Of a stretch of 43,754 bases of DNA, positions 12,289 through 39,580 are shown one piece after another. This DNA comes from a virus. Both the position numbers and the translations under genes were made by a program. Every line of letters starts with the position of its first letter. Position 1 is the first letter of the stretch. The notes beneath the pieces are model-generated. The model saw only the letters and a list, made by a program, of their open reading frames with translations, did not search any database and was not told the DNA's origin. The DNA is taken from IMG/VR virus record IMGVR_UViG_3300025674_004051, positions 1 to 43,754 of that record; one strand, written 5' to 3'.

Positions 12289-12317
12289 TTGATTAATACC
12301 ACTACATGTGGTATACT
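12289..12317 (+). promoter_or_regulatory. Sigma70-type promoter of the nrd genes, with palindrome
   Basis: TTGATT (12289-12294), 17-bp spacer, TATACT (12312-12317), 29 bp before ATG 12346. A perfect inverted repeat, ATACCAC-TACAT-GTGGTAT (12296-12314), fills the spacer and overlaps the -10 box, a classic place for an operator. It does not match the NrdR box as I remember it. Confidence 0.65.
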
Positions 12318-12345
12318 TTCATCTCATCAACACAAGGTAACAATA

Positions 12346-14316
12346 ATGTCAGTGAAAATTGATAAGTCCCGTGACGCTCTATTAAAAGACTATGCAGTTG
12401 GGATGTTAAAAGATTTCTATCTCAATGATTATGAAGACTCCCCCCAAGAAGGTTACCGTCGTGCCGCGACTGCATGGTCTAACGGCGACGAAGAACTCGC
12501 ACAAAGGTTGTACGACTATGTCTCAAAGAAATGGTTCATGTTCGCCTCGCCCGTCCTTAGTAACGCACCGAACGGTCATGGAAAGGGCAAGGGGATGCCG
12601 ATCTCGTGCTTTCTTACGTATGTCCCTGATACTCTTGAGGGCCTTATTGATCATACTTCTGAGTTGCGCTGGCTTAGCGTTTATGGTGGTGGCGTCGGTG
12701 GTCACTGGAGTGATGTTCGCACAGTTTCCGATGTTGCTCCAGGCCCTATCCCATTCCTTCATACTGTAGACGCAGACATGATTGCCTATCGTCAAGGTAG
12801 GACACGTAAAGGATCATATGCGGCGTACATGGATGTGTCGCACCCCGACATCATCGAGTTCTTGAACATGCGTATTCCCACGGGTGACGTGCAACGCAAA
12901 GCACTCAACCTACACAACGCAATCAACATCACCGATGAGTTCATGCAGTGTGTCAAATACGGCGACTTCTTTGATTTGCGTGACCCCAAAGATGGATCAG
13001 TCAAAGACTCTGTTGATGCACGAAAACTATGGGAAAGAATTATTGAGGTGAGGTTCCGTACAGGTGAACCCTACCTAAACTTTATTGACACAGCGAACAA
13101 TGCGTTACCTCAACCTCTCAAGGATCTGGGCCTACGCATCAACGGTTCTAATCTGTGCAATGAAATCCACCTACCCACGAGTGCGGAACGTACTGCGGTT
13201 TGTTGCCTTTCGTCTCTAAACTTGGAGTATTATGATGAATGGAAGGATACAACTATTGTCGGGGATCTTATTAGGATGCTTGATAACGTATTGCAGTACT
13301 TCATTGACAACGCACCTGACACAGTCTCCCGAGCAAAGTTCAGTGCAGAACGAGAACGGTCAATTGGTTTGGGAGCAATGGGTTTCCATTCCCTCTTACA
13401 AAAACACGGAGTTGCTTGGGAGTCTGACAAAGCAAGGGAAATCAACAGTGTTGTGTTCAGCCAAATCAATAGGGACGCAGTTGCAGAATCCGAACGCCTT
13501 GCCGAAGAACGAGGAGAGTATCCCGATGGCGTGGGTTCAGGTCGGAGAAACTCGCATCTTCTTGCTATTGCCCCCAACGCTTCATCCGGTGTTATACTGT
13601 CTACGTCCCCAAGCATCGAACCCTCAAAAGCGAATGCCTACACCCACCGAACAAGAGCAGGTAGCTTCCTCGTAAAGAATCCCTACCTTGAAGACTTGCT
13701 AGAAGAGAAGGGTGAGAACAACGAGAGTACATGGACATCGATCATTACCAACAAGGGTTCGGTACAACATCTACCGTTCCTCAACGAAGGTGAGAAGGCC
13801 ATATTCAAGACTGCACAAGAACTTGATCAGATGTGGTTGGTCACTCATTCCGCAGACCGTCAACCCTATATCTGTCAAGGTCAGTCGGTCAATCTGTTCT
13901 TCCCTGCTGGCGCACAGAAGTCATATGTGAACAAGGTGCATCTTGCTGCGTGGTCGAAAGGTCTCAAGGGTCTATACTATCTCCGTACCGAAGCAAAGTC
14001 TCGTGCGGAGAACGTGAGTGAGAAGGTCGAACGAGTTGCGTTACAGGATGATCAACGTAGCATAGTTTATTCTAAAAAGAATTGTCCTTTCTGTGCCATG
14101 GCCATGGAAGAACTCAAGTTGCGTGGCATACCTTTTGACAAGGTTGATCTCGAAGAAATTGGCAAAACTGCCGCAGAAGTAACAGGTCGAAAGGTAAATA
14201 CAGTACCACAAATTTATATTGAAGGTGAGTATGTGGGTGGTTATGATGACCTAATGGCAAAACTAAACAATACTCATGTCGAAGAATCCGAAGAATGCAG
14301 GGCTTGCGAGGGGTAA
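12346..14316 (+). CDS. nrdA: Ribonucleotide reductase large subunit with glutaredoxin domain
   Basis: I use ATG 12346 (AAGGTAACAATA upstream); the TTG at 12289 is part of the promoter. The 656-residue protein carries class I motifs: M-P-I-S-C (substrate-site Cys), N-L-C-N-E (the N-x-C-x-E radical site), a second Cys in A-V-C-C-L-S-S, A-P-N-A-S-S-G, and Y-Y in G-L-Y-Y-L-R-T for radical transfer. There is no N-terminal ATP-cone, so allosteric activity control is probably absent. Residues about 572-640 are a glutaredoxin domain with C580-P-F-C583 and T-V-P-Q-I-Y-I. The C-terminal Cys pair (C651-R-A-C654) comes after it. The glutaredoxin part likely reduces the C-terminal Cys arm. Confidence 0.92.
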   Translation: MSVKIDKSRDALLKDYAVGMLKDFYLNDYEDSPQEGYRRAATAWSNGDEELAQRLYDYVSKKWFMFASPVLSNAPNGHGKGKGMPISCFLTYVPDTLEGLIDHTSELRWLSVYGGGVGGHWSDVRTVSDVAPGPIPFLHTVDADMIAYRQGRTRKGSYAAYMDVSHPDIIEFLNMRIPTGDVQRKALNLHNAINITDEFMQCVKYGDFFDLRDPKDGSVKDSVDARKLWERIIEVRFRTGEPYLNFIDTANNALPQPLKDLGLRINGSNLCNEIHLPTSAERTAVCCLSSLNLEYYDEWKDTTIVGDLIRMLDNVLQYFIDNAPDTVSRAKFSAERERSIGLGAMGFHSLLQKHGVAWESDKAREINSVVFSQINRDAVAESERLAEERGEYPDGVGSGRRNSHLLAIAPNASSGVILSTSPSIEPSKANAYTHRTRAGSFLVKNPYLEDLLEEKGENNESTWTSIITNKGSVQHLPFLNEGEKAIFKTAQELDQMWLVTHSADRQPYICQGQSVNLFFPAGAQKSYVNKVHLAAWSKGLKGLYYLRTEAKSRAENVSEKVERVALQDDQRSIVYSKKNCPFCAMAMEELKLRGIPFDKVDLEEIGKTAAEVTGRKVNTVPQIYIEGEYVGGYDDLMAKLNNTHVEESEECRACEG

Positions 14317-16074
14317 ATGGAAAGACCAGAAGGTTTTAATAACGATTGGGGTAAACGTAGAGAACTCAAACCAATCGTTGGAATGTATGAAGGTCATGAT
14401 TCGAGTATAGTTTTCTATCTACCGAAGACGGATGATTGGGTCATCTACGAACTAGAGAAAGTGACCGGAATAAAACATTTCTCTATGTCACGGGGATTCA
14501 AAAATTTATTTGAGAATGGACCATACACGGTAGCTGGGCCCTCAAACACCCCCAACAATGTAACCCAGGCCGTAAAAAAGTGTCTAGTCAATCTCAAGAA
14601 AGATTTCGGTATTGAGAATGATTTCCTTGTATTTCATGTGATGCCTATTCATGCATCAAGAAATGATAAAGAGGTGCAATTCGGAAATCAGGGATTTGAT
14701 TACACAGTGTTAAACTGTCCTAGTTATCATCGAGCTCGGATGAATCACCATGAAGGTCATACATGGGGAGCATACATGACTTGCCCTTGGTCATCTGCGG
14801 CAATATTGTCTTGGGATGCAGGTGGTGACAGTACCACGATGATGTTCAGTAAGATCAAAGATGGTTACATACAAAAACGAACAGAGTATCCGATTGCTCG
14901 TGTTAGTTATATGTGGCAGATGCTTGGAATGATGATGGAAATCATTGTCAAAACTAAAAACGCATTAGACTATGCGGGTAAGATGATGGGACTTTCTGCA
15001 TACGGTAAGGTACATGCAGAGAAAGCCAAGGAGATGATGCCTGAGATTAAACGGTTGATGACCACACAGAGGATGAAACAACACGCAAGACAGTACTCTA
15101 AAGATTTGTGTGCTCTTCACTTCCCGTATTTTAAAGAGACTGGTACCTTGAACGATGAAGATTCTGCGATCCTTTGTTATGCGATTCAGAAGACAACCGA
15201 AGAAATTGTTATTGAAATGATACGAGATGAGTTCCTTGACGACATACACGAGATGGACAGTCAGTTAATCATCACCGGCGGTACTGCAATGAACATCCTT
15301 GCAAACGAGGCCATTAAGGAAGCATTTCCCGACATAAAGGTATTTGTTCCTTGCAATCCGAGCGACGATGGTATATCATGTGGCTTACTTGAACGAGAAA
15401 AGGATTTCTTAATATGGGATGAGTTTCTAGATCGTATGATACGGGGTTGGGACTTTAAATACAAAGGACCATATCTCATGGATCACCACCATATCGATGT
15501 ATGGCGGCATGAACGTGGTGCAAATGAAACGAGTATGAAAGAAGTTGCTTCGTTATTAAAACAAGGTAAGATCATTGGTTTTCTGAATGGTCGAAGCGAA
15601 GTGGGACCAAGATCATTAGGCAATCGTTCTATTCTGTGTGACCCGTCACAACCGAATATGAAAGACACATTGAATGCTAAGGTGAAATTTCGTGAGTGGT
15701 TTCGGCCGTTTGCACCGATGTGTAAACTAGAAGATGCTGATACATACTTCGATTCCCGTGATTATGAGTTCATGGATGCGATGCAGTTTGGTATAAAAGT
15801 AAAACCAGAATGGCAAGACCATCTAACGGAGATTACACACGAGGACGGCACGGCTAGATTACAGGTCGTCACTCCCGAATCAAATCCAGTAGTTTACGAA
15901 TTACTTGATGAGTTTGGAGGAGTGTTACTCAATACATCTTTTAATGTTCAGGGCAAACCTATACTTAACACTATAGGTGAAGCAATGCTTATTTTAGACA
16001 AAACAGAATTAGACTATGTGGTGATTGTACATAAAGATACAGGCATTCCATATCTATTCAAACCAAGAAATTAA
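14317..16074 (+). CDS. Carbamoyltransferase, NodU/CmcH-type
   Basis: 585 residues, starting immediately after the nrdA stop. The N-terminal half has the Kae1/actin-like features of this family: M-Y-E-G-H-D-S-S near 24, H-H-E-G-H near 145 (metal-type His), S-W-D-A-G-G-D near 165, T-G-G-T-A-M-N near 325. The C-terminal domain has the hallmark G-R-S-E-V-G-P-R-S-L-G-N-R-S-I and F-R-E-W-F-R-P-F-A-P. Such enzymes use carbamoyl phosphate and ATP to carbamoylate a hydroxyl of a sugar or antibiotic. Placement between nrdA and nrdB hints at a nucleotide substrate, but a glycan substrate (cluster at 21.7-37.6 kb) is equally possible. Confidence 0.85.
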   Translation: MERPEGFNNDWGKRRELKPIVGMYEGHDSSIVFYLPKTDDWVIYELEKVTGIKHFSMSRGFKNLFENGPYTVAGPSNTPNNVTQAVKKCLVNLKKDFGIENDFLVFHVMPIHASRNDKEVQFGNQGFDYTVLNCPSYHRARMNHHEGHTWGAYMTCPWSSAAILSWDAGGDSTTMMFSKIKDGYIQKRTEYPIARVSYMWQMLGMMMEIIVKTKNALDYAGKMMGLSAYGKVHAEKAKEMMPEIKRLMTTQRMKQHARQYSKDLCALHFPYFKETGTLNDEDSAILCYAIQKTTEEIVIEMIRDEFLDDIHEMDSQLIITGGTAMNILANEAIKEAFPDIKVFVPCNPSDDGISCGLLEREKDFLIWDEFLDRMIRGWDFKYKGPYLMDHHHIDVWRHERGANETSMKEVASLLKQGKIIGFLNGRSEVGPRSLGNRSILCDPSQPNMKDTLNAKVKFREWFRPFAPMCKLEDADTYFDSRDYEFMDAMQFGIKVKPEWQDHLTEITHEDGTARLQVVTPESNPVVYELLDEFGGVLLNTSFNVQGKPILNTIGEAMLILDKTELDYVVIVHKDTGIPYLFKPRN

Positions 16075-16083
16075 GGAGACATA

Positions 16084-17043
16084 GTGTCACTGCTAGATTT
16101 TTCACAAACATATAAACCATTCCAATACCCTTGGGCTGTTGAACTTTCTAAGAAACATGAAGAGGTTCATTGGATCGAAGATGAGGCGGAGTTAAGTGAA
16201 GATGTTCAAGACTGGAAAACCAAACTCACCGGAGACGAAAAAGAATTCATCACACAAGTGTTGCGGTTGTTTACTCAATCGGACGTTCAGGTGGGTGAAA
16301 ACTATCACGAACTTCTCATCCCCAAATTCAAGAACAACGAAGTGCGTAATATGCTTAGTTCGTTCGCCGGCCGAGAGGCAGTACATCAACGAGCGTATGC
16401 ACTTCTCAATGACACGCTCGGTCTTCCGGATGAAGAATACCACATGTTCATGGAAATTACCGAAATGGCTAACAAGGTTGATTTCATGAAGGAAGGCGAC
16501 ACATCTACGCATACAGGTCTGGCCCTTGCACTGGCACAGTCTGTATTCAACGAGGGCATGTCTTTGTTCAGTTCCTTTGTCATGTTACTCAATTTTCAAC
16601 GCTTCGGTAAGATGAAGGGCATGGGTACTATCGTCGAGTGGTCTATCCGTGACGAAACCTTACACGTACAGGGCAACGCAAAGTTGTTCCGTACATTCTG
16701 TGAAGAACATCCCCGCATTGTCAATGATGAACTCAAGAGTAAGATATATACAATGGCAAAGAATGCAGTAGAACTCGAAGACAAGTTTATTAATCTGGCA
16801 TTCAAGGGGAATGAAGTTGAAGGGCTCACAAAGGAAGAAGTACGACGTTATATTCGTCATATTGCTGACCGTCGTCTTCTTCAACTTGGTCTACGAACCA
16901 AGTTCCGACAGAAAGACAACCCCTTACCGTGGCTTGATTGGGTTCTCAACGGCGCATCCCACGATAACTTCTTCGAGAAAAGAGTAACAGAATACTCCGT
17001 AGTCGGTATGGAAGGCGATTGGGGGTGGAACGAGGTAGCATGA
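16084..17043 (+). CDS. nrdB: Ribonucleotide reductase small subunit
   Basis: 319 residues, GTG start at 16084 behind TAAGGAGA. All di-iron ligands and the radical Tyr are readable: D67 in T-Q-S-D, E98-x-x-H101 in R-E-A-V-H, Y105 four residues after the His, E157 in F-N-E-G, and E191-x-x-H194 in R-D-E-T-L-H. This is the standard Tyr-radical class I pattern. The C-terminus (G-D-W-G-W-N-E-V-A) would dock to NrdA. Separated from nrdA by the carbamoyltransferase gene, but on the same strand and likely the same transcript. Confidence 0.93.
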   Translation: MSLLDFSQTYKPFQYPWAVELSKKHEEVHWIEDEAELSEDVQDWKTKLTGDEKEFITQVLRLFTQSDVQVGENYHELLIPKFKNNEVRNMLSSFAGREAVHQRAYALLNDTLGLPDEEYHMFMEITEMANKVDFMKEGDTSTHTGLALALAQSVFNEGMSLFSSFVMLLNFQRFGKMKGMGTIVEWSIRDETLHVQGNAKLFRTFCEEHPRIVNDELKSKIYTMAKNAVELEDKFINLAFKGNEVEGLTKEEVRRYIRHIADRRLLQLGLRTKFRQKDNPLPWLDWVLNGASHDNFFEKRVTEYSVVGMEGDWGWNEVA

Positions 17044-21685: not shown

Positions 21686-22536
21686 CCAATTGGTTCCGCG
21701 AACCAATCTCCAATCAACCGATATTCGTTAACGATTCTTATGAGATTGATTGGCGCGGAACGTTAGGAGTTGGTGACATTCTGTATGGTTTGAATTGTGC
21801 ACACCAACTTGCACATCTGCACAACCATCACATCCGTATGAACGTGTTCTGGAAACACGATGCAGACTTTCTGTATCACTATGAAGATCCAGAAACGATC
21901 ATCGAACGCACCCAATACTTACACAACATGTACCACCGTCAATCGGATGTTACCCTCAACCATATATTCAATTCTACGGATGATGACATTGAGAAAAAAC
22001 GATGGCGGGGGTTTGGCCACAAGAGAGACCCACAACGAGTTCTGTCGTTTCATCACTGGATGTTTCGAAAAGAATTGTGGACTACGGGTCGTCCCAAGAA
22101 GGTGGTGTTTTGGAGACCCACATTCAATCGTGAGATACCATCGGGTGGTAAGAAGTGGAAGATGACATTCTCTGTCAAAGAGTGGGAACGCATTATCCAC
22201 TTTCTGGAACTCAAGGGATACGAACTGGTTGAACTGACATATCGTACACCCATAAGTGAGGCCTTCTATCATATACGTACATCCAATTTCTGTATCTTCT
22301 ATGACGGTATGTGGCAATACATCGCACGTAATCTTGGGAAACCAGTGATTACCTTGGGGGGTAGTTCTATATGCAAGGTGCATAGTCCACAAGGTGTTTA
22401 CTTTGCACGTCCACACGATGAGGATAATGATTTTTGGGATTACCTATATAATTTACCAAAGAACGAATCGCATCTAGAGAGTCGTGCGAACCGATACAAA
22501 ACCAAATTATGGGAATCGTTAAATGTTTCAGATTGA
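21682..22536 (+). CDS. Glycosyltransferase-like protein (GT-B style)
   Basis: 284 residues, first gene of the long sugar cluster, ATGA overlap. G-V-G-D-I-L-Y-G-L-N-C-A-H-Q-L near 30 resembles the first nucleotide-fold loop of GT9-like heptosyltransferases; V-V-F-W-R-P-T-F-N-R-E near 147 starts a second fold, and F-C-I-F-Y-D-G-M-W-Q-Y-I-A-R-N-L-G-K-P near 210 resembles a donor-sugar site. No complete family signature is seen. Assignment rests on these two-fold features and on its neighbours; other functions are possible. Confidence 0.45.
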   Translation: MTNWFREPISNQPIFVNDSYEIDWRGTLGVGDILYGLNCAHQLAHLHNHHIRMNVFWKHDADFLYHYEDPETIIERTQYLHNMYHRQSDVTLNHIFNSTDDDIEKKRWRGFGHKRDPQRVLSFHHWMFRKELWTTGRPKKVVFWRPTFNREIPSGGKKWKMTFSVKEWERIIHFLELKGYELVELTYRTPISEAFYHIRTSNFCIFYDGMWQYIARNLGKPVITLGGSSICKVHSPQGVYFARPHDEDNDFWDYLYNLPKNESHLESRANRYKTKLWESLNVSD

Positions 22537-23491
22537 CCGTGCAGTGATAGAAGTCAATGGGGGTTGCAACTACTCGTGTTCGATGTGTCCGCAGGACATG
22601 CGTACCGGAGGACGACACAAGGGTTTCCTCAAGAAGATGTCTCTCGAAGAGTTTGAGTCTAATGTCGCAGACTGTGCAAAACACGGCCTGAGAGTCGTGA
22701 ACCTTGACGGTTCCGGAGAGGCAACACTGAACCGTGATCTACCCAAGTACATCGAGATTGTCAAGAAGTACAATGCAAAGGCATTCATCTTCTCGAACGG
22801 TCACAACATGCACGGTCAGTACATGCGAGACTGTGTCGATGCAGGACTAGACTTCTATCGATTCTCGTGGATTGGTTCTGATCCTGTAAAGTATGATGAG
22901 TGGATGTACAATCGTATTGGTGGTGACTATGGATCAACATGGGACAAAGTCGAAGCCATGCAAAAGTATGTTGAAGAGACTGGTAGTGAATGTACAGTTG
23001 CAACCTATCATCTCATGACTGAAACAGAAGAAGATGCATTCAATAAGGAACTCGCTGCATACCAGAACATCGTCAACACATTGGGTGTTAAGACAGAAAT
23101 CTGGAAGATGCACAACTGGTCGGGAGTCTATGATCCCGTCAAAGAAAGAGAAGGAGCAAAGAAAACTTGTGGAAGACCTTTCAGTCCAGATCTGGTTATT
23201 CGGGCTGGCGGCTTGGATGGGAAGCGTGGTGCTGTTCATCCCTGTTGTCAAGTTCTTGGAAGAGATGAGGAGGGAATCCTCGGCTACACTAGCGAAAACA
23301 CCGTGGAAGAAATCTGGTTCGGTGAAGAGTACGAGAAACTCAGAGATCAACACACACGGGGAGACTATCCGTCATTCTGTGTTGACTGCGACTTCCTTGT
23401 CGATGATCCGGAAGTTTTAGTCTGGACAAACCACGGTCGTGATCTACACCACATGCACGGTACCGAATTCGATCTGGAAGATTACAGATGA
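22523..23491 (+). CDS. Radical SAM enzyme with SPASM-like C-terminus
   Basis: 322 residues; overlaps the previous gene by 14 bp. The radical-SAM cluster motif C-x3-C-x2-C is C-N-Y-S-C-S-M-C at 15-22; G-S-G-E-A-T-L near 72 is the SAM-binding GGE-type motif and I-F-S-N-G near 95 follows. C-terminal Cys residues (T-C-G-R-P-F, H-P-C-C-Q-V, F-C-V-D-C-D) fit a SPASM or twitch auxiliary [4Fe-4S] site. Such enzymes modify peptides or sugars (for example deoxygenation or epimerisation by radical chemistry). The substrate is unknown; the cluster suggests a sugar nucleotide. Confidence 0.85.
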   Translation: MFQIDRAVIEVNGGCNYSCSMCPQDMRTGGRHKGFLKKMSLEEFESNVADCAKHGLRVVNLDGSGEATLNRDLPKYIEIVKKYNAKAFIFSNGHNMHGQYMRDCVDAGLDFYRFSWIGSDPVKYDEWMYNRIGGDYGSTWDKVEAMQKYVEETGSECTVATYHLMTETEEDAFNKELAAYQNIVNTLGVKTEIWKMHNWSGVYDPVKEREGAKKTCGRPFSPDLVIRAGGLDGKRGAVHPCCQVLGRDEEGILGYTSENTVEEIWFGEEYEKLRDQHTRGDYPSFCVDCDFLVDDPEVLVWTNHGRDLHHMHGTEFDLEDYR

Positions 23492-24048: not shown

Positions 24049-24842
24049 GAAGATTAATTTATCAAGTCTGTCTGGGAAAGGCAAAGAACTCAGCATTGTA
24101 TAGGCATTGTATAGGCAGTGTCGGAGAATACTGCAAGAGACACGACATAGAACACATGGTTCAGTCGCGACCACTTCTGAACATCACACCCGATCCCTTC
24201 ATGTCTAATCGTAGTAAAGACGCCACTGCCAAACACGGTGGTTTCCTACCTATCTACGAGAAAGAGAACGCATTCAACCACCTTGACGACTATGATCAGA
24301 TTGCAATCATCGATGCAGATATTTTTATTCGTGAGGACGCACCAAACATCTTTGATGAGATGGAAGATGATAAGGCCTTTGGTGCGGTGTGTGAACGTGA
24401 GATGCCGATCAATGAGAAGTACAAAGGCAAGATTACCAACTACTCCATGATGCAGTATCAGTCGTTACACAATACAAAGATAGGTATCGACTTCAAACCA
24501 AATAACCTTGGATTTGAGTTCTTCAACATGGGCATGATTGTTCTAAATTGTGGGAAGTTTAAACCATACCTAAAAGGACAAACCGCAGAAGAGTTTATCA
24601 AACGCGGAGAGTTCATGGACTTTGTGAACGGCCGAGGGGCATTTAAGTGGAGTACCGATCAGACTCTACTTAATTGGTTCATAAAGAAGTATCGAGTTCC
24701 TGTACAACACATGGACTCGAAGTGGAATGGACTGTATACTGCAAATACTAAAATCAATGAATGTCACTTTGTGCATTTCTTCTTAAAAGATTTGTTACCA
24801 GATCAGGGTGAGAACGTTGCGGAGTTGATGCGTCTAATATGA
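24045..24842 (+). CDS. Glycosyltransferase-like protein with D-A-D motif
   Basis: 265 residues, ATGA overlap. I-A-I-I-D-A-D-I-F-I near 87 is a GT-A-fold D-x-D metal motif and F-F-N-M-G-M-I-V-L-N near 163 resembles the GT8 family segment; S-T-D-Q-T-L-L-N-W near 203 also fits. It opens R-R-L-I-Y-Q-V, like the paralogue at 32707 (N-L-I-Y-Q-Y) and more remotely 31102. Its 5' part contains an exact 11-bp tandem repeat (24093-24114). The transferred sugar cannot be told. Confidence 0.6.
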   Translation: MRRLIYQVCLGKAKNSALYRHCIGSVGEYCKRHDIEHMVQSRPLLNITPDPFMSNRSKDATAKHGGFLPIYEKENAFNHLDDYDQIAIIDADIFIREDAPNIFDEMEDDKAFGAVCEREMPINEKYKGKITNYSMMQYQSLHNTKIGIDFKPNNLGFEFFNMGMIVLNCGKFKPYLKGQTAEEFIKRGEFMDFVNGRGAFKWSTDQTLLNWFIKKYRVPVQHMDSKWNGLYTANTKINECHFVHFFLKDLLPDQGENVAELMRLI

Positions 24843-25945
24843 ACTATGAAGAAAAGACACAACTATACGCAACATGGGGGGATAAGTATTTACAACACAC
24901 CGACGTGTTATACTCAATTCAATATGAGGATACGTTTAAACCCATAAACATTCAATTATGTCTGTGTGAAATTTGTGATAGTGATTGTCCATTCTGTTCA
25001 GTGGCCGCACGACCACTCAAGAGTTATATCCCGTGGGAAAAACTAACCAAGATGTTAGTTGATTTTAAAGAAATGGGTGCAAAGGCATTAGAGATTACGG
25101 GTGGTGGTAATCCACTACTTTATCGTGACCGTGAAACAAAGAAAGACATCAACGATGTTATTCGATTTGCGGGTGAGTTGGGTTATGATATCGGCATTAT
25201 CACCAATACTGAAAAGTTGGAACGTCACCTAAACCCCGAAATCTATGACTATATTAATTGGATTCGTATTTCTTTGATCAAGTTAGATGAGGGTAAAGAT
25301 CCTGAAGATTATGATTTTGGTTCATTCCCAACCGAACGCCTTGCACTTAGTTACATCATATATGATGGCACTGGTGATGAACCCGACATATTATCTCGTA
25401 CAGGTAAAGTCTACGAAGGTACAACACCGGAGACTATTGAACGAATTGTCAAATTAGTAGAACTGAATCCGGCCGTGAAGTTTGTTCGCACTGGAGGGAA
25501 TTGTCTTGATGAAGGTTATCAACTTTCAGTGTATGAGAAATATAAAGACATTATTCAGAAACTAGACAGGTTCGATAAGTTCTTTATCAAAACATCATAC
25601 GATCATTCTGACGCATACGATAAGGGATGTTACGTAGGCCTGACCCGCCCATATATTGCACCCCATCCCGAAGGTGGGGATTATCAAGTCTATATCTGCA
25701 CAAGTCATGTATTGGAGAGTCGCACATATGACCTAGATTATTCTTTGGGAAGTATTGACAATGTCAAAGAAATATGGGATAATTGTAATCTGAGTTACGC
25801 TAAAACTGGCGTGCCTTATGAACTCCGTGGTGCAGGGAATGGTGGTTGGGGAGATGCATGTAACACATGTTTCTATTACAACAACAACAAACTGTTACAT
25901 ACGGTTGCCCAAACAATGGATATTGATGATCGGAACTTTGCATGA
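24839..25945 (+). CDS. Radical SAM enzyme with C-terminal Cys cluster
   Basis: 368 residues. The cluster motif C-x3-C-x2-C reads C-D-S-D-C-P-F-C near 47-54, preceded by another Cys (C-L-C-E-I). L-E-I-T-G-G-G-N-P-L near 85 is the SAM-binding strand and I-I-T-N-T near 118 follows. The C-terminal part has Y-V-Y-I-C-T-S-H-type and D-A-C-N-T-C-F-Y Cys residues, fitting a SPASM-like auxiliary cluster. This is the second radical SAM in the sugar cluster and is not closely similar to the first. Substrate unknown. Confidence 0.8.
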   Translation: MNYEEKTQLYATWGDKYLQHTDVLYSIQYEDTFKPINIQLCLCEICDSDCPFCSVAARPLKSYIPWEKLTKMLVDFKEMGAKALEITGGGNPLLYRDRETKKDINDVIRFAGELGYDIGIITNTEKLERHLNPEIYDYINWIRISLIKLDEGKDPEDYDFGSFPTERLALSYIIYDGTGDEPDILSRTGKVYEGTTPETIERIVKLVELNPAVKFVRTGGNCLDEGYQLSVYEKYKDIIQKLDRFDKFFIKTSYDHSDAYDKGCYVGLTRPYIAPHPEGGDYQVYICTSHVLESRTYDLDYSLGSIDNVKEIWDNCNLSYAKTGVPYELRGAGNGGWGDACNTCFYYNNNKLLHTVAQTMDIDDRNFA

Positions 25946-36170: not shown

Positions 36171-36856
36171 GTATTACAGTGTGTTGTGTTCTCTGGGGAG
36201 ACAAATTTGGTGTGGAGTATGTACACAATCTCAAGGCCGCGGTATCGAGAAACACTACCGTACCACATGAGTTTGTGTGCCTATCGGATCGCAAGATAGA
36301 AGGTGTGAAGACAAAACTGTTGAAGCCTGGATATACGGGATGGTGGAACAAACTCCAACTGTTTGATGGTGAGATCAAGGGTCGTATCGTCTATCTGGAT
36401 CTAGACACCATCATCACATCCAGTATCGATTGGTTGATGAACTACTCAGGTAACTTTGCTGGCATTGAGGATCTGGGTGTTGCGAATCAACATCAACAAC
36501 ACCTCAAGGGTGTGTTACAGTCCGGTGTGTTGGCGTGGAGAAGTGAAGCAATGGACTACGTCTGGTTTGAGTTTTCTTTCAATAAGAATACCGTTGTGAA
36601 TCAGTTTCGGGGTGACGGTGAGTATCTAAATTCAGTGGTGAAACGTCGAGACCTATTACAACAACTCTACCCCAAGAAAATACAGTCATATAAGTACGAG
36701 GTGTACCCTCAAAGATTAGATAGTACATCGATCATCTGTTTTCATGGACGACCTAGTATCATACAGGCGATGAATGAGTCAGTGACGACACCGATGAGAA
36801 CGTATTGGCCACAAGAGTGGGTGAAGGATTATTGGAATGCCAACGAAAGTAATTAA
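36167..36856 (+). CDS. Glycosyltransferase-like protein with D-L-D motif
   Basis: 229 residues, ATGA overlap. R-I-V-Y-L-D-L-D-T-I-I near 73 is the GT-A D-x-D motif, preceded by W-W-N-K-L-Q-L-F near 60; Q-S-G-V-L-A-W near 119 and C-F-H-G-R-P near 190 complete a GT8-like pattern (the His may bind metal). It opens S-I-T-V-C-C-V-L-W-G-D-K-F-G-V-E-Y. Sugar unknown. It overlaps the next gene by 20 bp. Confidence 0.6.
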   Translation: MSITVCCVLWGDKFGVEYVHNLKAAVSRNTTVPHEFVCLSDRKIEGVKTKLLKPGYTGWWNKLQLFDGEIKGRIVYLDLDTIITSSIDWLMNYSGNFAGIEDLGVANQHQQHLKGVLQSGVLAWRSEAMDYVWFEFSFNKNTVVNQFRGDGEYLNSVVKRRDLLQQLYPKKIQSYKYEVYPQRLDSTSIICFHGRPSIIQAMNESVTTPMRTYWPQEWVKDYWNANESN

Positions 36857-37592
36857 TATTTTAGGTAACGGAGACCGAGCACATTACTGGAACCAACATG
36901 ACCGTAAGGGAATGAATCTTCTGTGTAACATGCCTCCGTTCGATGTAGATCCTAAGACTGTGTTTGGAACAGTCATGGTTGATTTTAAGATGATGATGGC
37001 CTTGACTGAAGGTTCAATCGCACTAAATCAATATCAATGGATTTTGGGTACCCGCCCCCGTATCTGGATGTATGAACGATCTGCATTCCATCTCAAGTAT
37101 GCACCCAATGTGCGGGAGTTCTATACCCACGTTCCTAAGTATGCTGGTAATGCAACCAACTTTAATTGTGGTCACATGGCAACGCACTATGCAGCTGCAC
37201 GTCATAAAGCAGATGAGATCCATATGTTCGGGTTCGACACTTTGTTTGATTTTAACATGAGGAGTTACACCGACGTTGTCTTGTCTAGTGATCGATCACA
37301 AGTCAACAACTATCGACTACTGAACAACTGGAGACCAATCTGGAGAGATATCTTCCGTGAGTTCAAGAACACCAAGTTTGTTTTGCACCACAATCACGAC
37401 AATCTAAAGATCCCTGTACTTGACAATGTTGAAGTAAAGGTGTATGATGAGGGTAAGCTATCAAAAACACAACTGAAAGAGGATGTGTCTGATATTAGTG
37501 ATGGCCGAGGTATGGAAGTGCCAATTGACACTGCACCATTAAATCGTAAACAAAGGCGTGCACAAGAAGCATTGCAACGCAAGGCAAAATAA
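36837..37592 (+). CDS. Sugar-cluster protein of unknown fold, sialyltransferase/DUF115-like
   Basis: 251 residues. I-N-I-L-G-N-G-D-R-A-H-Y-W near 7 resembles the G-N-G-P-S opening of DUF115 and GT42-type sialyltransferases, and H-M-F-G-F-D-T-L-F-D near 133 resembles their later G-x-D block. The last 45 residues are low complexity and basic (L-N-R-K-Q-R-R-A-Q-E-A). This is the last gene of the sugar cluster. Assignment is tentative. Confidence 0.45.
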   Translation: MPTKVINILGNGDRAHYWNQHDRKGMNLLCNMPPFDVDPKTVFGTVMVDFKMMMALTEGSIALNQYQWILGTRPRIWMYERSAFHLKYAPNVREFYTHVPKYAGNATNFNCGHMATHYAAARHKADEIHMFGFDTLFDFNMRSYTDVVLSSDRSQVNNYRLLNNWRPIWRDIFREFKNTKFVLHHNHDNLKIPVLDNVEVKVYDEGKLSKTQLKEDVSDISDGRGMEVPIDTAPLNRKQRRAQEALQRKAK

Positions 37593-37801
37593 TGGTACAA
37601 CGAAAACGACACATCGCCAAGGCGTTCAGTTGGAGAGTAGTTGGTACACTTGACACATTTGTGTTGGGTTGGTTATTCACTGGATCTGCGACCATTGGTG
37701 CAGCGATTGGTGGTGCAGAAGTCATCACCAAAACGTTTTTATATTATTTCCACGAACGTGCGTGGTACAAGTACATTAAGTTTGGATTGAAAGATGTTTG
37801 A
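37592..37801 (+). CDS. DUF2061-like small membrane protein
   Basis: 69 residues, 1-bp overlap. The pattern K-A-F-S-W-R-V-V-G-T-L-D-T-F, followed by two hydrophobic segments and A-E-V-I-T-K-T-F-L-Y-Y-F-H-E-R-A-W, is the layout of the DUF2061 family of two-pass membrane proteins. Function unknown. It overlaps the next gene by 8 bp and links the sugar cluster to the exonuclease gene. Confidence 0.7.
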   Translation: MVQRKRHIAKAFSWRVVGTLDTFVLGWLFTGSATIGAAIGGAEVITKTFLYYFHERAWYKYIKFGLKDV

Positions 37802-38471
37802 ACATGTAGGGATCGATCTGGGTTACGAAGACCTAGAGGCAATCACAACTGACAAGGGTAGACGGTATGTCATGGCAGACGGATCGCACTACCCATCGAT
37901 TACAACCGTTCTATCGATACTGAGTGAAGATGGTATCGCCGCATGGAGAAAGAGAGTTGGACACGAAGAAGCTGACAAGATATCTTACAGAGCATCTCAA
38001 CGAGGAACAGCTGTACACGAAATTATTGAGAGATATATCGACAACAAAGAAGACTATCGTGACGGTTTCATGCCTAACGTTGTTTCTGATTTCTTCTCCA
38101 TCAAACCCATACTGGATTCACGGATTGGAAAGGTGTACGCTCAAGAAGTCCCGCTTTACTCTGACTACCTTGGTGTTGCGGGGAGAGTCGACTGCGTAGC
38201 CGAGTTCGATGGTCAACTGTCCATCATTGACTTTAAGACTAGTCGTCGATTCAAGTCTCGAAATCATGTCACGAACTATTTTCAACAAGAAGCCTTCTAT
38301 GCAATTGCATGGGAAGAGAGAACGGGTATTCCCATTACACAGTTAGTTACACTGATTGTGGTAGATGACGGATCAACGCAAGTATTTGTTGAACACCGTG
38401 ATGACTGGGCCGGAGAGTTGCAGCAAACAATAGAGAAGTATAATGAAAGACAGTATCCAGCAGATTCATGA
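37794..38471 (+). CDS. RecB/Cas4-like exonuclease
   Basis: 225 residues. The nuclease core reads G-T-A-V-H-E-I-I-E near 72 (His of the family), then A-G-R-V-D-C-V near 131 and S-I-I-D-F-K-T-S near 144, i.e. D and D-x-K of the PD-(D/E)xK fold. It resembles the single-strand exonucleases of marine T4-like phages (MGME1/Cas4 type). It likely acts in recombination or DNA degradation. Its last 29 bp overlap the heme oxygenase-like gene. Confidence 0.8.
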   Translation: MFEHVGIDLGYEDLEAITTDKGRRYVMADGSHYPSITTVLSILSEDGIAAWRKRVGHEEADKISYRASQRGTAVHEIIERYIDNKEDYRDGFMPNVVSDFFSIKPILDSRIGKVYAQEVPLYSDYLGVAGRVDCVAEFDGQLSIIDFKTSRRFKSRNHVTNYFQQEAFYAIAWEERTGIPITQLVTLIVVDDGSTQVFVEHRDDWAGELQQTIEKYNERQYPADS

Positions 38472-38952
38472 TGAAGTAGAGAACATGCCGTTCTCTCAAC
38501 GACTCGCGACTGGTGAGTTGACGGATGGACAGATTATTGCATACATGCAGAATCAATACTTTATCTTTCAGTCAATGGAAGGATCGTTGAACGATGTGCC
38601 TCACCAATCACTCCGACGATGTAGAAAGATACGTGAATGTATCTCAGAGATGGGAGAAGAGATTGACGGTAAGTGGATGACAAAGGCCGTTCAGGATTAC
38701 ATCAACTACATTATTGGTGCAGAAGACTATCGTGAGAAGTGGATGTCACACGTCTATCTCAACTATATGGCCATGATGATGGGTGGTTCAATCCTTACAG
38801 AAAAGAATCCAGAAATGACGTGGATGTGGCATTTCGATGACCGTAAAGAATGTATCAAGGCAATCCGTGCAGAAGAAATCGATTGGGATCAAGTGCACGA
38901 AGGGTTTAAGTATCATCGTAGGATGTTAGAGGAACTAAACCATGTGGAATAA
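38443..38952 (+). CDS. Heme oxygenase-like protein
   Basis: 169 residues, shorter than usual HO1 (about 230-240). His9 in I-H-D-E-V-E-N sits where HO has its proximal heme His (H-x-x-x-E-N), G-E-L-T-D-G-Q-I-I-A-Y near 24 matches the next helix, and H-V-Y-L-N-Y-M-A-M-M-M-G-G-S-I-L near 103-118 matches the HO distal helix (Y-x-x-Y-L-G-D-x-S-G-G-Q). The Gly pair is kept but the Asp that organises the O2-bound water network is Met here. HO opens heme to biliverdin, CO and iron using ferredoxin. The overlap with a bilin reductase gene (11 bp) strongly supports the role. Confidence 0.7.
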   Translation: MKDSIQQIHDEVENMPFSQRLATGELTDGQIIAYMQNQYFIFQSMEGSLNDVPHQSLRRCRKIRECISEMGEEIDGKWMTKAVQDYINYIIGAEDYREKWMSHVYLNYMAMMMGGSILTEKNPEMTWMWHFDDRKECIKAIRAEEIDWDQVHEGFKYHRRMLEELNHVE

Positions 38953-39580
38953 TTTTATCGAACTTCAACGTGAACTGACAAGGATCTTCACATACTACTG
39001 TGAGAACCCAACACCAGACCACAACGAAGAACTGGGTCACTACAACTTCTATTGGAAGAATAAGAGGTTGGAACTGGGCCATATCAGTGTAGTCGATAAG
39101 AGAGATTCGCATGGTATTTGGATGATGCACTGTAACGCATATGCTCGTGCACATTATCCTATGCCGATCTACGGGTTCGATGTGGTATGTTCTAAAAAGA
39201 AAGTTACCGGATGTTTCCACGATCTGTCTCCCACGGGTTACAACGATATGATCATGCCTCGCAAGGAGGTGAAACGGGAAAGAACATTACCCGAATGGGC
39301 GGTAGAGATCTTCTCAGAAAACATGTTGGCGGCAGGTAACGTTACTGAAGAAGACGAATGCCTTGAATATGCAATGATGGGTATGGACAGTCTCGAAGCA
39401 TGGTTCCTCAGAAGTGAGGCCTTGAAACCCATTGTCCCCGCAGTGAAGTACATTGGTCGTCGATCAAAGTACTGTCAGAACCAGTTGATGAATCCTCACA
39501 GTTTCAAGGTGATGGAGAATCTTGGGTTTCCGTCTGACTATCTTACTGAGTTTAAGACTTCTAAACAGTTTCCCTTCTAA
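38942..39580 (+). CDS. Ferredoxin-dependent bilin reductase (PcyA/PcyX/PebS family)
   Basis: 212 residues. The core M-M-H-C-N-A-Y-A-R, then P-I-Y-G-F-D-V-V and F-H-D-L-S-P-T-G is the FDBR signature; Asp80 corresponds to catalytic Asp105 of PcyA/PebS, and His63 lies 17 residues before it, the same spacing as PcyA His88/Asp105. Near the C-terminus K-Y-C-Q-N-Q-L-M-N-P-H-S-F-K-V-M matches the family Y-x-x-x-Q-x-x-N-x-x-T/S block. These enzymes reduce biliverdin to phycobilins with electrons from ferredoxin. Which bilin is formed (phycocyanobilin or phycoerythrobilin) cannot be decided here. Related phage enzymes are known from cyanophages (PebS) and uncultured ocean phages (PcyX). Confidence 0.82.
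   Translation: MWNNFIELQRELTRIFTYYCENPTPDHNEELGHYNFYWKNKRLELGHISVVDKRDSHGIWMMHCNAYARAHYPMPIYGFDVVCSKKKVTGCFHDLSPTGYNDMIMPRKEVKRERTLPEWAVEIFSENMLAAGNVTEEDECLEYAMMGMDSLEAWFLRSEALKPIVPAVKYIGRRSKYCQNQLMNPHSFKVMENLGFPSDYLTEFKTSKQFPF

Follow-up and report, generated by a model that had tools for sequence, protein, structure and literature searches.

Gene cassettes that pair a heme oxygenase (HO) with a ferredoxin-dependent bilin reductase (FDBR) are on record from phages: HemO-PcyX cassettes in marine phages, the pair of the pelagiphage Mosig, freshwater cassettes, and the active HemO/PcyA pair of CB_2, whose FDBR lacks Asp55 (PMC11480375). PcyX is reported from phages but not from cyanophages, and the product of an FDBR is not predictable from its sequence (PMC13193486). 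The fitness advantage of heme-to-bilin genes to phages was only speculated on in the 2024 cassette paper (PMC11480375). The broad claim of the original prediction, such a pair without photosystem genes in view, is not new, as hemO-pcyX cassettes in non-cyanophages had been published (PMC11480375) and Mosig carries the same adjacent pair. HO-FDBR pairs in non-cyanophages are already known; what appears to be new is a branch in which both proteins are altered and the FDBR carries Ser at an active-site position (Ser-type) that is Asp in PcyX (Asp-type) and Glu in PcyA (Glu-type). Neither the Ser-type branch nor the lack of Asp140 in viral HOs is described in the open-licence papers that we read, the text of PMC11480375 among them.

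The window, by which we mean the whole stretch of 43,754 nucleotides of viral DNA analyzed here, encodes on its + strand a heme oxygenase-like protein of 169 aa (38443..38952) and an FDBR of 212 aa (38942..39580). The two overlapping ORFs of the original prediction are thus present, with an overlap of 11 bases (38942..38952, +) that recurs in the closest relatives, and the overlap makes translational coupling of HO and FDBR likely. A good match to a Shine-Dalgarno sequence (AGAGGAA; 38928..38934, +), read directly, lies within the HO gene, 7 bases 5′ of the FDBR start. The first ORF matches Pfam Heme_oxygenase (PF01126, 34.5 bits, cut-off 23), and its AlphaFold2 model (mean pLDDT 93.6) retrieves the heme oxygenases HmuO, HO-1 and HO-2 in Foldseek; with a proximal His and a distal Gly-Gly as well, it is akin in sequence and fold to the HemO/HO-1 type of heme oxygenases. 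The second ORF matches Pfam Fe_bilin_red (PF05996, 32.5 bits, cut-off 31), PHROG 7278 'ferredoxin oxidoreductase' (4e-9) and, in a search of PDB sequences, PcyX (5owg, 2.3e-35) ahead of PcyA (4e-9). Its model (mean pLDDT 91.7) has the FDBR fold, with Foldseek matches to PcyA, PcyX, PebA, PebB and PebS (E down to 2.1e-12, TM up to 0.81). The identification of the second gene as an FDBR is therefore borne out by Pfam, PDB and fold, and by a phylogeny in which it falls inside PcyX-type sequences.

The Asp80/His63 pair named in the original prediction aligns with Asp105/His88 of PcyA, so that the catalytic Asp is present, and Asn184 corresponds to PcyA Asn219 in an alignment that is ungapped around the active site; His47, placed by spacing, corresponds to PcyA His74. 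Missed in the original prediction was Ser49, which occupies the position of PcyA Glu76 and PcyX Asp55. In our first set, this position is Ser in 13 sequences of one branch and Asp in 120 viral PcyX-type sequences, a few of them from MAG contigs; in a wider search it is Ser in all 34 distinct gene pairs of the branch and Asp in none. The Asp-His pair is kept in every Ser-branch and PcyX-type FDBR of the residue tables.

The Ser-type sequences lie on one side of a branch in a 57-row FDBR tree (support 100/100). A 70-row tree, with several long branches and a distant outgroup, took in Glu-type viral FDBRs, acetobacteral PcyA and cyanophage PcyA; in it, 32 Ser-type rows form a single group (100/100), nested within Asp-type (PcyX) sequences and beside marine Asp-type sequences and Mosig (97/85). 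This nesting suggests that Ser at position 49 is a derived state in a PcyX-like stock. The window FDBR groups with PcyX, also its best PDB match, rather than with PcyA or PebS. PcyX reduces biliverdin to phycoerythrobilin (PEB) in a four-electron reaction, and its Asp is said, in the abstract of a study of the PcyX mechanism, not to be catalytic. Assignment as plain PcyX was rejected for lack of Asp55 in the window and in the other branch pairs, assignment as PcyA for an incomplete Glu76-His88-Asp105 triad, and assignment to PebS or the PebA-PebS lineage by the position of PebS far outside in the tree. No bacterial source of the Ser-type FDBR was found among 8 genome loci. The PcyX-like genes of L098-L101 come from MAG contigs that bear the labels Pirellulales, Neomarinimicrobiota, Halobacteroidaceae and Rickettsiales; three of these genes group with viral PcyX in the tree, and by this placement the contigs are probably viral. 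L102-L105 are acetobacteral PcyA.

We numbered HO residues from a phmmer alignment with human HO-1 (a G139A mutant chain). His9 of the window HO corresponds to the proximal His25 of HO-1 and Gly114-Gly115 to Gly143-Gly144; these are kept, as is Arg142. Phe42, Asn107, Ala110 and Met111 stand in place of Tyr58, Arg136, Gly139 and Asp140, and the distal Tyr58/Arg136/Asp140 network is thus missing. The heme oxygenase partner of the original prediction stands on Pfam family, fold and proximal His; the absence of the three canonical distal residues had been overlooked. Among 123 distinct viral HOs, all 13 partners of Ser-type FDBRs carry Phe at the Tyr58 position, Asn at Arg136 and one of the hydrophobic residues Met, Leu, Phe and Trp at Asp140; Tyr58 and Asp140 are present in 110/110 of the others, 88 of which have Arg at Arg136. 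Over the wider set, Asp140 is found in 0/34 HO partners of Ser-type FDBRs and in 115/115 scorable partners of Asp-type FDBRs, one further such partner (L046) being gapped at Asp140 and left unscored. The 34 Ser-type partners also lack Arg136 and Tyr58 throughout, the latter replaced by Phe except for Met or Leu in three, and in one sub-branch Gly139 has become Ala. The equivalents of the proximal His, Gly143-Gly144 and Arg183 are invariant in the first 13 of these sequences.

In human HO-1, D140A turns the enzyme into a peroxidase (PMC5623701), and replacement of G139 does likewise according to the title of a cited study; the window HO carries both changes, with Ala at the G139 position and Met at D140. 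These points, and the lack of a plant-like His at the Asp140 site, speak against a working oxygenase. The HO-1 of plants, on the other side, has neither this Asp nor this Arg and runs on another network (PMC7948506).

Loss of Asp140 extends beyond the Ser-type branch. In the residue table, viral FDBRs with the PcyA-type Glu adjoin an HO without Asp140 in 53 cases and with Asp in 3, and six such FDBRs that were aligned show the Glu76-His88-Asp105 triad. One more Asp140 case (L306:2980-4108) has an HO with Asn at Arg136 and Asp140 kept; it adjoins a Glu-type FDBR and may represent an intermediate. At another locus (L147:3890-5235), tandem FDBR genes, one Asp-type and one Glu-type, lie beside an HO with Asp140. 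In the tree of HOs, those paired with a Ser-type or a Glu-type FDBR are jointly set apart from the rest by one branch (100/100), but the AU test rejects either group as a clade of its own (p far below 0.001), which implies that partners were exchanged or that the two trees differ. With Ser-type partners split in this way and Asp140-less HOs beside Glu-type FDBRs, we reject an invariable coupling between the change in the reductase and those in the oxygenase. The same two observations suggest that loss of Asp140 is older or wider than the change to Ser. Glu-type FDBRs need biliverdin, which argues that the Asp140-less oxygenases beside them still make it; as read from these pairings, loss of Asp140 does not by itself mean a dead oxygenase.

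The pair is under purifying selection, with pairwise dN/dS of 0.035-0.118 for HO and 0.039-0.239 for FDBR in pairs with unsaturated synonymous change. HO is present in 16/16 branch records checked (window included), together with FDBR in all. Chance ORFs are ruled out by the Pfam matches, the folds, the dN/dS values and the conserved pairing.

A PD-(D/E)XK exonuclease gene (PHROG 298; 37794..38471, +) overlaps the HO start by 29 bases and, wherever the contig reaches that far, is the immediate 5′ neighbour of HO in the branch loci read. A conserved 'GNGD' protein whose function is not assigned (36837..37592, +) is next upstream in several branch loci; in the window, 37592-37801 encodes a small DUF2061 membrane protein (5.4e-23). 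In one Ser-type sub-branch, a DUF454 (YbaN-like) membrane protein is encoded just 3′ of FDBR (L035:3691-4122, L107:4920-5318, L109:4629-5051), assigned by Pfam for L107 only and by look-alike sequence for L035 and L109. Elsewhere the window encodes the large (NrdA; 12289..14316, +) and small (NrdB; 16084..17043, +) subunits of a class I ribonucleotide reductase, the latter of a diiron enzyme family with an iron demand. A Nol-like carbamoyltransferase gene (14317-16074) adjoins the ribonucleotide reductase genes, and two radical SAM proteins (22523-23491 and 24839-25945), one with a SPASM domain, are encoded in a stretch with many genes for methyltransferases and sugar enzymes.

The closest complete phage, C48C1, is 156 kb, set against the 43.7 kb fragment that is the window, and Methylophilales phage Melnitz is next; both give the best NrdA matches (80% and 67%), and among phages of known host the nearest are those of Methylophilales. 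C48C1 has the PD-(D/E)XK exonuclease (62% identity), and hypothetical genes of C48C1 match two small ORFs just 3′ of the window FDBR, but there is no HO after its exonuclease and no FDBR match. Since C48C1 shares the flanking genes without the pair, we infer that HO-FDBR is an accessory pair inserted into a backbone that the two phages have in common. A tRNA-Pro gene was uninformative as a host marker (85-87% to many phages and bacteria). The phage is T4-like and aquatic, and its non-cyanobacterial host is probably a proteobacterium.

Taken as a whole, the locus is best explained as a functional heme-to-bilin operon carried by a T4-like phage with a probably proteobacterial, non-cyanobacterial host, a reading to which we give a probability of roughly 0.6. 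HO and FDBR would be expressed as a translationally coupled operon. HO would bind heme via His9 and open it to biliverdin, CO and Fe2+, with an altered distal water network replacing that of Tyr58, Arg136 and Asp140, and FDBR would then reduce biliverdin with Asp80/His63, presumably using electrons from host ferredoxin. A Fer2 ferredoxin was found in 0/16 branch records (window included, all fragments), with P-SSM2 positive as a control. The product would more likely be 15,16-dihydrobiliverdin or phycoerythrobilin than phycocyanobilin, as the Glu76 proton donor is absent. That the phage makes a bilin, as originally predicted, is probable from sequence, with the qualification of Ser49 and the missing distal Asp, Arg and Tyr. 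The most likely use is either heme breakdown during infection, which would release iron while the reductase drains off biliverdin, or the making of a bilin for signalling; the pair may also serve an antioxidant function.

Alternatively, the pair could serve iron scavenging, with heme breakdown as the point and FDBR removing biliverdin to speed HO turnover while its final regiochemistry is relaxed. That position 49 has lost its Glu/Asp and the Asp80/His63 pair has been retained fits this, PMC11480375 discusses iron supply in connection with cassettes of this kind, and the phage encodes radical SAM proteins and NrdA/NrdB, though the iron-needing class I enzyme is weak support. Iron need is generic to phages, however, no heme uptake gene is annotated in the window, and FDBR is strongly constrained, so that we regard scavenging as possible but doubtful. 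A further reading is a re-tooled pair, in which an oxygenase without the distal Asp/Arg/Tyr and a reductase without the Glu/Asp donor would yield a bilin, or a chemistry of heme degradation, for which PcyA, PcyX and PebS offer no precedent; we offer this only tentatively. It is unlikely that the HO-like protein is no longer an oxygenase and is instead peroxidase-like, heme-carrying or bilin-binding, leaving FDBR to use host biliverdin or another tetrapyrrole: the distal losses across the branch, Ala at Gly139 in a sub-branch and the peroxidase activity of D140A all point that way, but the invariant proximal His, Gly-Gly and Arg183 equivalents, the pairing of Asp140-less HOs with Glu-keeping FDBRs and the working plant enzyme (PMC7948506) argue against it.

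A bilin made as chromophore for a phytochrome-like photoreceptor of the host, through which the phage alters light sensing, seems to us rather improbable. The PcyA and HemO of the CB_2 phage load the phytochrome Cph1 in E. coli (PMC11480375), and FDBR is kept together with HO; yet no photoreceptor is annotated among the window genes scanned, and a Ser49 FDBR should not yield phycocyanobilin if the 18-vinyl step needs Glu76. Antenna phycoerythrobilin for a cyanobacterial host, as from cyanophage PebS, is unlikely in the extreme, in keeping with the original prediction. PcyX makes PEB, T4-like backbones are common to cyanophages, and the best PhoH matches are cyanophages (51%), but psbA was found neither in the 43.7 kb window, a fragment in which no photosystem gene had been in view before, nor in the 15 other branch records (likewise fragments) or C48C1, with P-SSM2 positive as a control, and the closest phages, the Methylophilales hosts and the reported restriction of PcyX to non-cyanophages (PMC13193486) all point elsewhere.

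The Ser-type branch amounts to a natural experiment, with dozens of viral pairs from which Asp140 and Glu/Asp are gone and in which the pair is still together and constrained. It bears on alternative proton routes in the oxygenase, on the residues that set the product of the reductase, and on whether the reductase serves to make pigment or merely to drain biliverdin.

Among known systems, the marine phage cassette of PcyX (EBK42635, PDB 5owg) and HemO shares with the window the HO-FDBR pair, the FDBR fold, the Asp-His pair and the same side of the tree; it differs in Asp55 against Ser49 and, in the PcyX-type viral HOs examined, Asp140 against Met111, and the window FDBR is ~38% identical to PcyX-type sequences. 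The pelagiphage Mosig EXVC030M (HO QOI69018, FDBR QOI69017), whose host Pelagibacter is non-photosynthetic, is likewise T4-like and has an adjacent pair (37% identity in FDBR, 24% in HO), but its FDBR is Asp-type and its HO Asp140-type and, unlike in the window, the pair adjoins neck genes; a ferrochelatase gene lies close by, and the genome includes one for a ferredoxin. The vHemO/vPcyA pair of the CB_2 phage, compared by its published description (PMC11480375), is also a non-cyanophage pair whose FDBR lacks Asp55; it makes phycocyanobilin and comes with valaS, which is absent from the window. Synechocystis PcyA shares the fold (TM 0.73-0.79 to Synechocystis structures) and the equivalents of His88, Asp105, Asn219 and His74, with Glu76 replaced by Ser in the window and ~20% identity in fold alignments. 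Soybean HO-1, a plant enzyme, resembles the window HO in having the HO fold without equivalents of Arg136 and Asp140 (PMC7948506); at the Asp140 site it has His150, where Met111 stands in the window HO alongside Asn107 and His158.
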